In this document: positions 12,832-20,730 of the stretch, in pieces
How the letters are laid out: each line of letters begins with the position of its first letter
Position numbering within the stretch: position 1 is the first letter of the stretch
From: Candidatus Gastranaerophilales bacterium
GTDB taxonomy: Bacteria; Cyanobacteriota; Vampirovibrionia; Gastranaerophilales; Gastranaerophilaceae
Reading direction: 5' to 3'
DNA length: 40,849 bases
NCBI GenBank assembly: GCA_947594025.1
Contig: CANQDZ010000011.1
Coordinates: forward strand, 1-40,849
The notes under the pieces: model-generated
The model's input: the letters and a program-made list of their open reading frames with translations, nothing else
Databases searched by the model: none
Told to the model about the DNA's origin: nothing
Position numbers and translations under genes: made by a program

Positions 12832-12860
12832 TTGATTTTAATTAAAAAAGTATTCATAAT
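12832..12860 (+). promoter_or_regulatory. Promoter of the pilin-like gene
   Basis: TTGATT (12832-12837), a 17-base spacer, and CATAAT (12855-12860). The start of transcription would fall about 10 bases before the ATG at 12877, leaving a very short leader with no Shine-Dalgarno. This placement favours the ATG at 12877 over earlier in-frame codons. Confidence 0.55.
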
Positions 12861-12876
12861 TATTTTGGTAAAATAT

Positions 12877-13707
12877 ATGAATAAAATTTTTAATAAAAAA
12901 TTCAAAAAATCCGTCATTATTGCAATATTATGCGTATTAATAATATTTTTAACCCCTTTATTTTTTAAATATTGCGAAAAAAGAATTTACGTACGTGAGC
13001 TTAAAAAATCATATTCCGCTTTGTCTTACATATTTAAAAATATAATGAAAACTTCAAGCGATAATGATATATCGAAAACCGTACTATGGTCTAAAATTCC
13101 GACTTCAATAGATGATATATATGCTGAAGATTTACAAAAAAAAGAGTGCAAAGACTTTAAAGACGAATTCTTGAAAACCTTTGATGTTACGTCTGTTTAC
13201 GGGGATGAAAATTTTCCTGCTGAATTTGACCCGAATTACAAAGGACTGGATGGACGAGAATTTGGCACGTTTTCTGAAGGAGTAGTTTACTTGAAAGATA
13301 AAACGCTTATGTGGTTTAGCTTTTCAAGAAGACCGAGAACCGCATATTGCAACAATTTTCCTTGTAAAACACTTGATGACTATCAAAAATCAAGAAAAGC
13401 ACCCGTTAAATTTTGGATTGAGGCAGGATTTGTCGTTCTGGATGTTAACGGCGTAAAAGGACCAAATGTTATGGGGCGCGATTTATTCGCTTTTTCTTTA
13501 AGCGGAGACGGAATACTTTACCCTATAGGCAGCAAAGATTATGCCATTTTTGCAGGCGAAGGCGCCTGCGATTACAACAATCTCGGAACCTGTATGAGGT
13601 ATTGGAATTCGGATGATGATTACGTTTCCTGCAGGAGATGGGGAAGGTCTGAAGGCGACGGCTGCGCGGGTCGTATAATTGAAGAAGGTTGGAAGATGAA
13701 ATACTAG
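12877..13707 (+). CDS. Pilin/pseudopilin-like membrane-anchored protein
   Basis: A 276-residue protein with a basic N-terminus, then one hydrophobic helix (about residues 12-30, SVIIAILCVLIIFLTPLFF), then an extracytoplasmic domain rich in Cys, Asp and Gly. The segment after the helix (YVRELKKSYSALSYIFKNI) and the C-terminal elements VVLDVNGVKGPNVMGRDLFAF, AGEGACDYNN, GDGCAGRIIEEGW and GWKMKY resemble type II secretion/type IV pilin-like proteins abundant in gut Melainabacteria. Several C-terminal Cys could form disulfides or a calcium-type loop. A canonical prepilin peptidase site (G/FTLIE) is not visible, so it may be an uncleaved relative. No pilus assembly genes are in the window. Family assignment is moderate. 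Confidence 0.6.
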   Translation: MNKIFNKKFKKSVIIAILCVLIIFLTPLFFKYCEKRIYVRELKKSYSALSYIFKNIMKTSSDNDISKTVLWSKIPTSIDDIYAEDLQKKECKDFKDEFLKTFDVTSVYGDENFPAEFDPNYKGLDGREFGTFSEGVVYLKDKTLMWFSFSRRPRTAYCNNFPCKTLDDYQKSRKAPVKFWIEAGFVVLDVNGVKGPNVMGRDLFAFSLSGDGILYPIGSKDYAIFAGEGACDYNNLGTCMRYWNSDDDYVSCRRWGRSEGDGCAGRIIEEGWKMKY

Positions 13708-13753
13708 TGATTTAATGCACCATATTACTTCTATTATACTTTATTATATCAAG

Positions 13754-13776
13754 TAGATATATATTGATAATATTTT
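13754..13776 (+). repeat. A+T-rich dispersed motif, copy 1
   Basis: A 23-bp copy, TAGATATATATTGATAATAT followed by TTT. It differs from copy 2 at one position. Confidence 0.65.
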
Positions 13777-13926
13777 CATCTTTTTTATTAATATAAATAA
13801 AACCAAATAAAATTTAGAATAAACTTTGAATATAAATAAAAATTAAAAAATATAAAAATATAAAATGCTGATTAAAATTTTTAAGCTTAAAATGTTTAAA
13901 AATTAAATTTTAGTATAATCTATCAT

Positions 13927-13950
13927 ATAGATATATAATGATAATATTTT
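13927..13950 (+). repeat. A+T-rich dispersed motif, copy 2
   Basis: A 24-bp copy whose core is AGATATATAATGATAATAT. It matches the inverted copy at 15774-15797 base for base. A shorter partial relative (TATATTGATAA) lies at about 13998-14008. Confidence 0.7.
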
Positions 13951-14757
13951 ACCGAAAATAACAAAATTTTTATTTAAAATATTGAATCTAAACGACATAT
14001 ATTGATAAATTTTTTAATAATTTTAATTTATAAATTCTTTTAAAATAAAAAACATGATATTTAAACTTTAAAATTTTATTAAAATATTTTCAATTAATTA
14101 AGTATAGTTTTATTTTTTATAAATAAAAATACATTTTAAATTTTTTATTTAAAATTGTTTTTAATTTAAAAATTGCTTTAATTTTAAAATTTTTTAAATA
14201 ACATTTTATTACTCAAAAAATCTTTACATTTTTGAAAATATTATTTAAAAATAATATAATAAGCGTACTGTTAATTTTATATAGTATTTAATTTAAACTG
14301 CCATATAACAATAATGTTGTTATATAATTAAATTTTATTTTTTAATATATATTTAATGTTTTAATAAAAAACAGAAAAACAGGCATTTATAGCCCATATT
14401 AAATCTATTCGATAGGTATCTATAATAGATATTATGTAAATTTATCATTAAATTAAGAAACAAAATAAAAGAAAATACAATATCAACTAAACTATAATTT
14501 TTCCCGGAGTACAATTTCAATTAAGTTACATTTTGCCTAAGATACAATTTTGACCTGAAAATAAGGGTGTTTTGTTTTAAGATGTCAAAAAAATAGTGCT
14601 GAATTTTGGCTTAAGTTATAAATTTATAATATAAAAATAGACTGATTGTAAGCTTAAATATTGATTTAATAATAAAAAACGCTTTATCTATAAAAAAATT
14701 AAATGTTTTTAGCAAATTTTTAAAAGTATATATCTTTCTTTGCGTACAATTTAAAAA

Positions 14758-14892
14758 TAAAAATGGATATAATTCCCACAATTTTAATTGCTAAAATTAA
14801 TTAAAGAATTTATTACTAATTTTTATAAATAACACTTATAAAATTTTTGCTGCACATTTTAGATAATATTTATAAAAATATATCCATTTTTA
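14758..14892. repeat. Inverted repeat bounding a 107-bp insert
   Basis: TAAAAATGGATATA (14758-14771) and its exact reverse complement TATATCCATTTTTA (14879-14892). The arms could form a long-looped hairpin or mark the ends of a small element. The insert has no recognisable gene. Confidence 0.6.
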
Positions 14893-15340
14893 CTCGAGCG
14901 AAAATCGATTTTAAGGCGTTTAAATTATTTTGTCATGTGTTTTTATATGCGTTGAATTTATAACCCCTCTTAAAATTCATTTTAACGCGTCTTAATCTGA
15001 AACCCTTATGCTGTAAGAATTATCAGCTTAATATAATCACTAATATAAATTTTTAAGTATTTTTTTAAACTTTTATTTAAAACTCGAGCTTTTTATAAAA
15101 ATTATTTTCAACTTGACATCTAAAACATCCTGATAAATATTTTAAATATTTATGAAAAATTTCTTAAAATGTTTTTCAATTTTAAATCTATAAATCTTTG
15201 ATAATTTAAAATTAAAGAATTTAAAAATTAAGAGAAAAAATTTAAAATGTAAAAATTTAAAAATAAAGATTCAGATATTAATGAAACAAAATAAAGCCAA
15301 AAAATAAAAATATAGAATTTTAGATAAAAAAATAAAAAAA

Positions 15341-15370
15341 ATAAAAAATAAAAAATAAAAAATAAAAAAT
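15341..15370. repeat. 7-bp tandem repeat (ATAAAAA)
   Basis: Four complete ATAAAAA units plus two bases, preceded by similar A runs. Simple-sequence DNA of this kind can be bent or prone to slippage. Confidence 0.85.
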
Positions 15371-15391
15371 TCTCCGATACTCTTTTTGTGC

Positions 15392-15407
15392 AAAATATTA
15401 TCAATAT
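15392..15407 (-). repeat. A+T-rich dispersed motif, partial inverted copy
   Basis: AAAATATTATCAATAT matches the reverse complement of copy 1 over 16 bases and then diverges. Confidence 0.45.
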
Positions 15408-15453
15408 CATTCGTATCGATATAATATAATAAAATTTTTTTAGTTTTATATGC

Positions 15454-15475
15454 TGATATTATCATTACCTATCTA
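15454..15475 (-). repeat. A+T-rich dispersed motif, diverged inverted copy
   Basis: It keeps ATATTATCATTA and TATCTA of the inverted motif but has CC replacing the middle bases. Confidence 0.5.
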
Positions 15476-15773
15476 TAAGATATAAAATTAGGTTTTAATA
15501 ATATTTTTTAAAAAAATATTATATTTAAAATAAAATTATTTTTAATTTAAATTTATTTTTAATTTAAGTTTAATTTTAATTTTAATTACAAATAAATTTA
15601 AACATGTAATATAAATATTTAATTAAATTAATTAATTTTAATTATAAATATATACATTAACATATCTATAAGTTCCGTACTTTAAAAAACCCTGCTAAAG
15701 AATTTATATCTAATTGATATATTATACCTCTTGTTTTAATTATTTAAAAGCACATTATTTATAAAAAATTCTA

Positions 15774-15797
15774 AAAATATTATCATTATATATCTAT
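15774..15797 (-). repeat. A+T-rich dispersed motif, inverted exact copy of copy 2
   Basis: Reverse complement of 13927-13950 with no mismatch over 24 bases. The pair encloses about 1.8 kb of the gene-free block. Confidence 0.7.
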
Positions 15798-16006
15798 TAG
15801 TTATATATTTTAAAATAATTTTAATATTATTACTAATAACGCTTGATTTAAAATAATTCTTGAAATTTATAGAGCAATTTTGCTCAAAATTTTAAGCTTT
15901 ATAGTATTTTTCATTTAAATTTTTATTTTTAGAAGTTAAATAATATGCTCAGTTTTTCTGCTTTTGATAATGAAATCCTGAATTCGAATATTAAAATTAT
16001 AGTATT

Positions 16007-16669
16007 ATGAACAGAATTAGAGTAATTTTAATAGACGACCACAAGCTTTTAAGAAACGGACTCAGAGGTCTTTTAGAAAAAAATAACGAAATAATAGTTA
16101 TAGGTGAAAGTGAAACGGGAAAAGAAGGTATATCAAAGGTTATCAATCAAAAACCCGATGTTGCAATTGTAGACATAGGACTTTTAGATATGTCCGGAGT
16201 CAAAGTTATAGAAAAAATAAGACAAGGTGCCTTAAATACAAAAGTTATTGCGCTAAGCTCGCATGATGATCCTAAAGATGTGATAGGCGCTCTTAATGCA
16301 GGTGCTAACGCCTATGTTTTAAAAGATATTTCAGACGATGATCTTATATTTGTCATTAAAAATGTTGCACGTGATGCTATATTTATTGATGCAAAAGTTT
16401 CTGAAATATTCAAAAATACAATTTACAAAGATTCTCCGCAAAAGAAATTATCAAGAGCAAGTTTTAAAGAACAGCACGCTAATTTAACGGAAAGAGAGTA
16501 TGAAGTTTTAAAACTTGTTGTAGACGGAAAATCAAATCAACAGATTGCTGATATTTTAAGTATCAGCGAACATACCTCAAAAGCCCACGTATGCAGTATT
16601 ATCCAGAAATTAGTTGTTGATGACAGAACCCAAGCAGCTGTTAAAGCCATAAAGGAAGGAATAATTTAA
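16007..16669 (+). CDS. NarL/LuxR-family response regulator
   Basis: A 220-residue regulator. The receiver domain (about 1-120) has LIDDH (residues 8-12), phosphoacceptor D56 in VAIVDIGLLD, S84 in IALSSHDD, and K106 in AYVLKDIS. The LuxR-type helix-turn-helix (about 155-215) shows LTEREYEVLKLVVDGKSNQQ, then IADILSISEHTSKAHV and KLVVDDRTQAAVKAIKEG. The VDDRTQAAV recognition-domain end is typical of cyanobacterial NarL-type proteins. No sensor kinase is nearby. It lies at the right edge of the A+T-rich block and 72 bp before an acyl-CoA synthetase gene. Whether it controls that gene or the pilin-like gene is unknown. No Shine-Dalgarno precedes the ATG. Confidence 0.94.
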   Translation: MNRIRVILIDDHKLLRNGLRGLLEKNNEIIVIGESETGKEGISKVINQKPDVAIVDIGLLDMSGVKVIEKIRQGALNTKVIALSSHDDPKDVIGALNAGANAYVLKDISDDDLIFVIKNVARDAIFIDAKVSEIFKNTIYKDSPQKKLSRASFKEQHANLTEREYEVLKLVVDGKSNQQIADILSISEHTSKAHVCSIIQKLVVDDRTQAAVKAIKEGII

Positions 16670-19842: not shown

Positions 19843-20730
19843 ATGAAAGATTATCTTAAAGATTTTTATAATTATTTAAAATATGAGAAGAATTTTTCCG
19901 AACATACAATAAGGGCATACGTTTCAGATGTTTCAACATTTCTTTTATGGCTGGATAAAGAGGATATACTTTCCGTTACAAATAAAAAATTTACCGATTT
20001 TTTAAGATTTATTCAAAATATCAAATACGAAAAGTCAACTGTGGCAAGAAAAATTGCTTCAATAAGGTCATTTTACCATTTTTTGTATATAAAAGAAAAA
20101 ATATCATATAATCCGATAGATAATATTTCATCGCCAAAACAATCAAAAACACTGCCTAAATTCTTAACGACAGATGAGGTTGAGTCTATCCTTCAAAATA
20201 TTAAAATCGATTCGCCAAGCGGATACAGAAACAGATTAATACTAGAGCTTTTATGGGTTACCGGTATGCGTATAAGCGAACTCTCATCGCTTAATTTTGA
20301 AAACTTAAATCTTGAGTCCAATGAAATAAAAGTGTTGGGTAAGGGCAATAAAGAAAGAATTGTATTAATTCCGAATAAAACAAAGGATTTTTTAAACAAC
20401 TATATTCAAAATGTAAGGTCATTAATCTGTGAAGGCGCATTAAATGAATTAAATTCTCCATTGTTTATAAATAATAACGGCTACAGGCTTCAAAATCAAA
20501 GCATTAGAAAAGCAATAAAAAATGTGGTTGAAAAAATAAAATTACCTAAAAAAGTTACTCCGCACGTATTTAGACATAGTTTTGCCACAAAAATGCTTGA
20601 AAATGGCGCTGATTTAAGAATAGTACAAGAGCTTTTAGGTCATGCAAGTATCGCTAATACGCAGATATATACTCACGTTTCAACGCAAAGAATGCAGGAA
20701 GTTTATAAAGAAGCACATCCCAGAAGTTAA
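19843..20730 (+). CDS. Tyrosine recombinase of the XerC/XerD type
   Basis: A 295-residue site-specific recombinase. The N-terminal SAM-like core-binding domain is at about 1-85 (FSEHTIRAYVSDVSTFLLWL). The catalytic domain is at about 105-290, with the full set R143 (TGMRISEL), the GKGNKER beta-hairpin lysine near 168, H241 and R244 (HVFRHSFAT), H267 (LLGHASI) and the nucleophile Y276 (TQIYTHVS). Length and layout fit housekeeping Xer proteins that resolve chromosome dimers at dif. A phage or integron origin is not suggested. No dif-like site was recognised in the window. It ends overlapping the convergent AGCS symporter gene by about three bases. XerC versus XerD cannot be decided. Confidence 0.93.
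   Translation: MKDYLKDFYNYLKYEKNFSEHTIRAYVSDVSTFLLWLDKEDILSVTNKKFTDFLRFIQNIKYEKSTVARKIASIRSFYHFLYIKEKISYNPIDNISSPKQSKTLPKFLTTDEVESILQNIKIDSPSGYRNRLILELLWVTGMRISELSSLNFENLNLESNEIKVLGKGNKERIVLIPNKTKDFLNNYIQNVRSLICEGALNELNSPLFINNNGYRLQNQSIRKAIKNVVEKIKLPKKVTPHVFRHSFATKMLENGADLRIVQELLGHASIANTQIYTHVSTQRMQEVYKEAHPRS

Follow-up and report, generated by a model that had tools for sequence, protein, structure and literature searches.

A gene-free, extremely A+T-rich block in a Gastranaerophilales chromosome (positions 13708..16006, no strand assigned) is, judging from its sequence, very probably the dif locus of that chromosome, i.e., its Xer/dif site; it carries a dif site and two opposed arrays of a repeated element, here called R, where an mnmC-like gene stood ancestrally. 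That the block is a dif locus for chromosome dimer resolution we hold with a probability of roughly 0.9; the R module most likely forms a terminus complex. The window analysed here, 40,849 nucleotides in length, is one entire contig (C11) of the draft genome G000, which totals 1.51 Mb; most of the genomes compared with it are drafts as well, and one of them, from a congeneric species (G001), is the sole other representative of the genus among them.

An A+T-rich block and its putative dif site

An earlier note on this DNA had described about 2.3 kb without genes, richer in A+T than its surroundings and with repeats of its own, and each of these descriptions held. The block is 2,299 bp long with a GC content of 0.1505, against about 0.30–0.40 in its flanks; its longest ORF is at most 64 aa, a scan of it found no tRNA, and Rfam gave no match within it, on which grounds a small protein and an RNA gene or riboswitch were rejected as its contents. 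The single Rfam match in the whole window was the ribosomal protein L10 leader (RF00557; 8657-8785, minus strand), upstream of rplJ-rplL, where it is expected. The note had also placed genes elsewhere within about 150 bp of each other, which is nearly correct, most gaps being below 130 bp, but two measure 181 and 314 bp. The 15% GC of the block compares with 25% in the other sampled intergenic DNA and 32% at fourfold-degenerate sites of the same contig, values that leave a simple mutational equilibrium unsupported. Among the repeats, judged against dinucleotide-preserving shuffles, the direct repeat 13747-13776 / 13921-13950 scored 14.0 (null maximum at the same rank, 11.1) and the inverted matches ranked second to fourth also exceeded their null maxima; the top inverted match, identical 24-mers at 13927-13950 and 15774-15797, scored 14.9, below its null maximum of 16.7, and part of the other repeats claimed for the block is merely A/T low complexity.

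To the left of the block lie an FAD-dependent oxidoreductase gene (PF12831; 11520..12779, minus strand), which is the conserved left neighbour of dif, and a pilin-like gene of a multicopy family (12832..13707, plus strand); to the right is a NarL-type response regulator (16007..16669, plus strand), which in several relatives also adjoins dif on that side. Alignment of the locus across relatives, which the earlier note had recommended, located a block at the same place in G001, between the same oxidoreductase and regulator genes and within more than 20 kb of common gene order, although of a different size (833 bp, 10–15% GC). An A+T-rich block at the same place in the congener, amid such extensive conservation of gene order, makes an assembly artefact improbable, and the presence of the block in G001 also rules out a mobile element restricted to one strain. 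The G001 block has no pilin-like gene beside it, which excludes that gene as the origin of the block; the pilin-like gene is a lineage-specific neighbour outside the terminus module, a copy of which has come between the oxidoreductase gene and dif in G000. The pilin-like family has 23 matches in G000 (including L043-L066), several of them in tandem and 14 no more than about 530 bp from the end of a contig; the copy in the window is without the prepilin-like leader (FTLAEVLITLAIIGVVAALTIP) of its paralogues.

The putative dif site (14415..14442, plus strand) is a 28-bp sequence of dif type, in which a pair of inverted arms encloses a centre of 6 bp: the XerC-side arm GGTATCTATAA, the centre TAGATA (usually TATATA in relatives) and the conserved XerD-side arm TTATGTAAATT. 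It resembles the XerCD/dif systems of E. coli and B. subtilis in this 28-bp plan of inverted arms and 6-bp centre, with a near-invariant XerD arm (TTATGTAA), and also in its low GC, its position at a skew shift and the presence of two Xer recombinases. The blocks of G000 and G001 share an exact 23-bp match at dif and are otherwise unalignable; the shared 35-bp stretch around it (GATAGGTATCTATAATAGATATTATGTAAATTTAT in G000, GATATATATCTATAATAGATATTATGTAATTTTAT in G001) scored 17.8, where the null reached at most 13.4, making dif the best-conserved stretch between the two blocks; next after it comes the repeat that the block itself carries. The version of dif in the window was present in 21 of 59 genomes and the family consensus in 50 of the 59, compared with few for a reversed-pattern control. 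The dif pattern has a single match in G000 and a single match in G001; extra dif-like copies occur in several relatives (G005, G033, G034 and G043).

Strand-balanced GC skew switched from plus to minus, as a replication terminus should show, right at dif in two relatives (G046 and G041) and near dif in a third (G006), and was weak around dif in G001. The skew check proposed in the earlier note thus succeeded in three relatives but not in the window itself, whose 40 kb were not informative. Of the roles that the note had considered for the block, a segregation or replication element is the one to which the evidence points, in the form of a dif/terminus locus; none of the results speaks to nucleoid silencing.

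Separately, G043 contains 80 dif-like sites in all, and these include the inverted boundaries (GACCGATAATATTTTTTATGTAA) of a ~285-317-bp element with copies 91-94% alike (L209:3481-3795, L210:1396-1710, L211:5-321 and L218:1427-1711), which looks like a miniature element derived from Xer sites. Comparable inverted dif-like pairs, 400-770 bp apart, were seen in G033 and G005 (L212-L215).

Retention of dif after loss of an mnmC-like gene

The dif site is coding through most of the order. We took 30 mnmC-like methyltransferase genes (PF05430) from across the Gastranaerophilales by protein search, a choice free of DNA-search bias, and dif lay inside the gene in 30 of 30. All 30 encode the peptide HNIYY with the same codons (CAT AAT ATA TAT TAT), the sole conserved columns to use one codon only, and the peptide is missing from the mnmC-like gene of a class-level outgroup; from the invariant codons together with the peptide's absence in the outgroup it follows that selection acts on the DNA. 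This location departs from that of bacterial XerCD/dif in general: among 161 proteobacterial dif sites 96.3% were noncoding (PMC2731167), as were 93.9% of a wider set (PMC3025954). The common gene order is the oxidoreductase gene and the mnmC-like gene with dif, both on the minus strand, followed in several genomes by the response regulator on the plus strand.

Six genomes (G000, G001, G012, G021, G026 and G032) keep dif in the same place and orientation without the mnmC-like gene, for which a protein search of all six found no match. On a tree of the oxidoreductase protein, the presence and absence of the mnmC-like gene requires three changes, at least two of them forced by well supported branches. 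In both G000 and G001 the frame directly after HNIYY resembles the lost protein more than did any of 5000 shuffles; in G000 this remnant (HNIYYRYLSNRFNMGYKCLFF) belongs to a 55-aa frame (14353..14520, minus strand) that runs in frame across dif, and a profile search for mnmC remnants recognised nothing beyond the stretch adjoining dif. Given an in-frame remnant and a dif site without the gene, we conclude that the block is what is left of the mnmC-like gene's place, with dif retained. The gene would have been lost in the genus of G000 and G001, as well as in the four further genomes of the sample, while selection retained dif, and the DNA around the retained site would then have turned extremely A+T-rich.

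The earlier note had listed decay among the possible origins of the block, and this was right in part, as the mnmC-like gene of most relatives is indeed gone here but the dif site inside it is not. Decay could also be taken as the entire explanation, the block being a decayed gene in drifting A+T-rich DNA and its dif-like stretch the leftover of a conserved peptide; the missing gene, the recognisable remnant beside dif and the coding nature of dif in relatives are all as such a reading would have them. We nonetheless regard it as very improbable, since synonymous positions are invariant in 30 genomes, dif persists in six that lack the gene, no other stretch is as well conserved between two blocks that do not otherwise align, and the site fits both the XerC-N6-XerD plan and the skew shift.

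The R element around dif

The repeats of the block belong to R, a polar element of ~33 bp (consensus AAATATTATCRNTATATATCKAWTCGATATA), which is apparently an undescribed DNA repeat. In the window, three minus-strand copies lie to the left of dif (13743..13776, 30.3 bits; 13917..13950, 29.0 bits; 13981..14014, 20.9 bits) and three plus-strand copies to its right (15392..15425, 28.9 bits; 15453..15486, 23.9 bits; 15774..15807, 32.4 bits), and a further minus-strand copy overlaps the XerC arm of dif itself (14398..14431, 19.5 bits); every R match in the window of at least 13 bits falls inside the block. The first pattern used for R had 41 matches in 600 kb of dif loci compared with none for a reversed control, and positions beyond the defining pattern were also conserved, e.g., a G in 39 of the 41. 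Subsequent scans used models built without the genome being scanned. Outside dif loci there was one match in 735 kb of other DNA, and three sites lay more than 3 kb from dif.

Flanking R sites were found in 33 genomes, with both arms present in 28 of 41 loci, and their orientation is opposed about dif in 108 of 121 cases (minus on the left, 52/60; plus on the right, 56/61). Sites that had not been used to define the motif agree with this arrangement in 75 of 81 cases. The binomial p of 8e-20 for orientation conveys too much certainty, because neither the R sites of one genome nor those of related genomes are independent of each other; a vote per genome is safer, and gave 30 concordant, two ties and one against. 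Eleven neighbouring same-strand pairs have a spacing of exactly 42 bp, about four helical turns, which suggests a cooperative complex. Overlap between R and the XerC arm of dif was seen in 28 loci, four other families among them; flanking arrays were found in no family but that of the window, save for lone sites at a distance of 4.7 kb in G041 and G046. As the other families of the order have R at dif only, dif as such does not need the arrays.

In most relatives, although not in G000, the oxidoreductase coding sequence also carries R. Some of these sites occupy a near-constant position in one frame, with TTA in 40/40 and an xCG codon in 32/40 while the encoded amino acid varies, counts that are biased by the model-based selection of the sites. 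The corresponding part of the oxidoreductase protein is deleted in G000, and R is found in the block instead.

The position of R next to genes brings up a regulatory reading, in which R sites are operators of flanking genes such as the response regulator and their position round dif is incidental. R does lie 130-230 bp upstream of the regulator in G000, G001 and G033. We nevertheless consider operators improbable, given that R surrounds dif also where the regulator is missing from the locus and that many R sites are inside the coding sequence of the oxidoreductase or mnmC-like gene. The suggestion of the earlier note that the block is a control region for its flanking genes is likewise unsupported, as dif and R occur together even without an adjacent response regulator and the congener has no pilin-like gene at this place.

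The opposed polarity of R calls to mind the Tus/Ter and RTP/Ter fork traps, which similarly have two groups of polar sites, opposed, around the terminus (here 108 of 121 R sites concordant). The R arrays might accordingly be polar barriers that make replication forks meet at dif, with dif still acting as dif, a possibility favoured by the polarity of R about dif in 30 of 33 genomes, by its position at the skew shift and by its near absence elsewhere. In contrast to the fork traps, however, R sites lie mostly 0.4-2.7 kb from dif and share sequence with its XerC arm. That R overlaps this arm, and in four other families is found only there, points to Xer and not to forks, and we hold fork barriers, although the foremost alternative, to be a tentative and rather less likely explanation of the arrays.

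Xer recombinases, FtsK and the proposed terminus complex

The window encodes a XerC/XerD-type tyrosine recombinase (19843..20730, plus strand), one of two in the genome, with profile scores of 320 and 318 bits to XerD and XerC, respectively, vs 128 to XerS. Two Xer genes were present in 8/8 genomes, one of which has a third, weaker match; those of G000 are on contigs C11 (5.4 kb from dif) and C1 (19627-20487). Having two Xer genes each, these genomes do not follow the single-recombinase plan of difSL/XerS and difH/XerH, with one recombinase beside the site. Neither the FtsK/SpoIIIE motor (PF01580) nor the FtsK gamma domain (PF09397) had a match in 8/8 Gastranaerophilales genomes (G000, G001, G006, G012, G026, G032, G041 and G046), in profile searches of draft genomes that used a loose prefilter and were positive in 8/14 controls. 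In E. coli, FtsK moves to dif and activates XerD (PMC3025954). As FtsK is the usual partner of dif and not part of the site, we class the site as dif despite the missing match, which makes the system a variant of XerCD/dif. Unlike other bacterial XerCD/dif systems, it combines the lack of an FtsK match with an R extension on the XerC side and, here, flanking R arrays.

By computation alone we infer recombination at dif, along with everything said here about the binding and role of R. On the basis of the sequences, XerC and XerD would recombine two copies of dif and so resolve dimeric chromosomes to monomers as replication finishes. If FtsK is lacking, something else must time and direct this recombination. 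The R module, i.e., two opposed groups around dif and the R on its XerC arm, would most likely bind a terminus protein, or XerC itself, and the resulting nucleoprotein complex may restrict Xer to the right partners at the right time, the job that FtsK does elsewhere. We put the chances at about even that R, with its copies at the XerC arm and on both sides of dif, controls Xer recombination in this manner. Put more broadly, we lean slightly toward the view that an order which seems to lack FtsK controls XerCD/dif, or replication termination, by means of R, an element that forms part of dif and that one family also has in opposed arrays around the site, which would be a new type of terminus complex.

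The plasmid Xer sites cer and psi have accessory sequences. By analogy, selectivity of Xer without FtsK could come from accessory DNA next to the XerC arm, although R differs from the accessory sequences of cer and psi in being chromosomal, in lying on both sides of the core and in its motif. R also recalls KOPS in being a polar sequence arranged toward dif; KOPS, however, are short and chromosome-wide, whereas R is ~33 bp long, is confined to the dif locus and occurs where FtsK had no match.

The Gastranaerophilales site is thus set apart from known dif cases by its conserved coding location through most of the order, by R and by the missing FtsK. For Melainabacteria/Gastranaerophilales, a literature search on dif and FtsK yielded nothing relevant and no account of a dif site, and dif prediction had failed for Cyanobacteria (PMC3025954); the locus accordingly supplies a terminus landmark for gut bacteria of a large and uncultured group. 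The locus also offers a natural experiment, in which a selected DNA site within a coding sequence survived the loss of the gene and left a gene-free block behind. Moreover, it raises a testable question, namely how Xer recombination is timed and made selective without FtsK, for which the R arrays are a concrete candidate.
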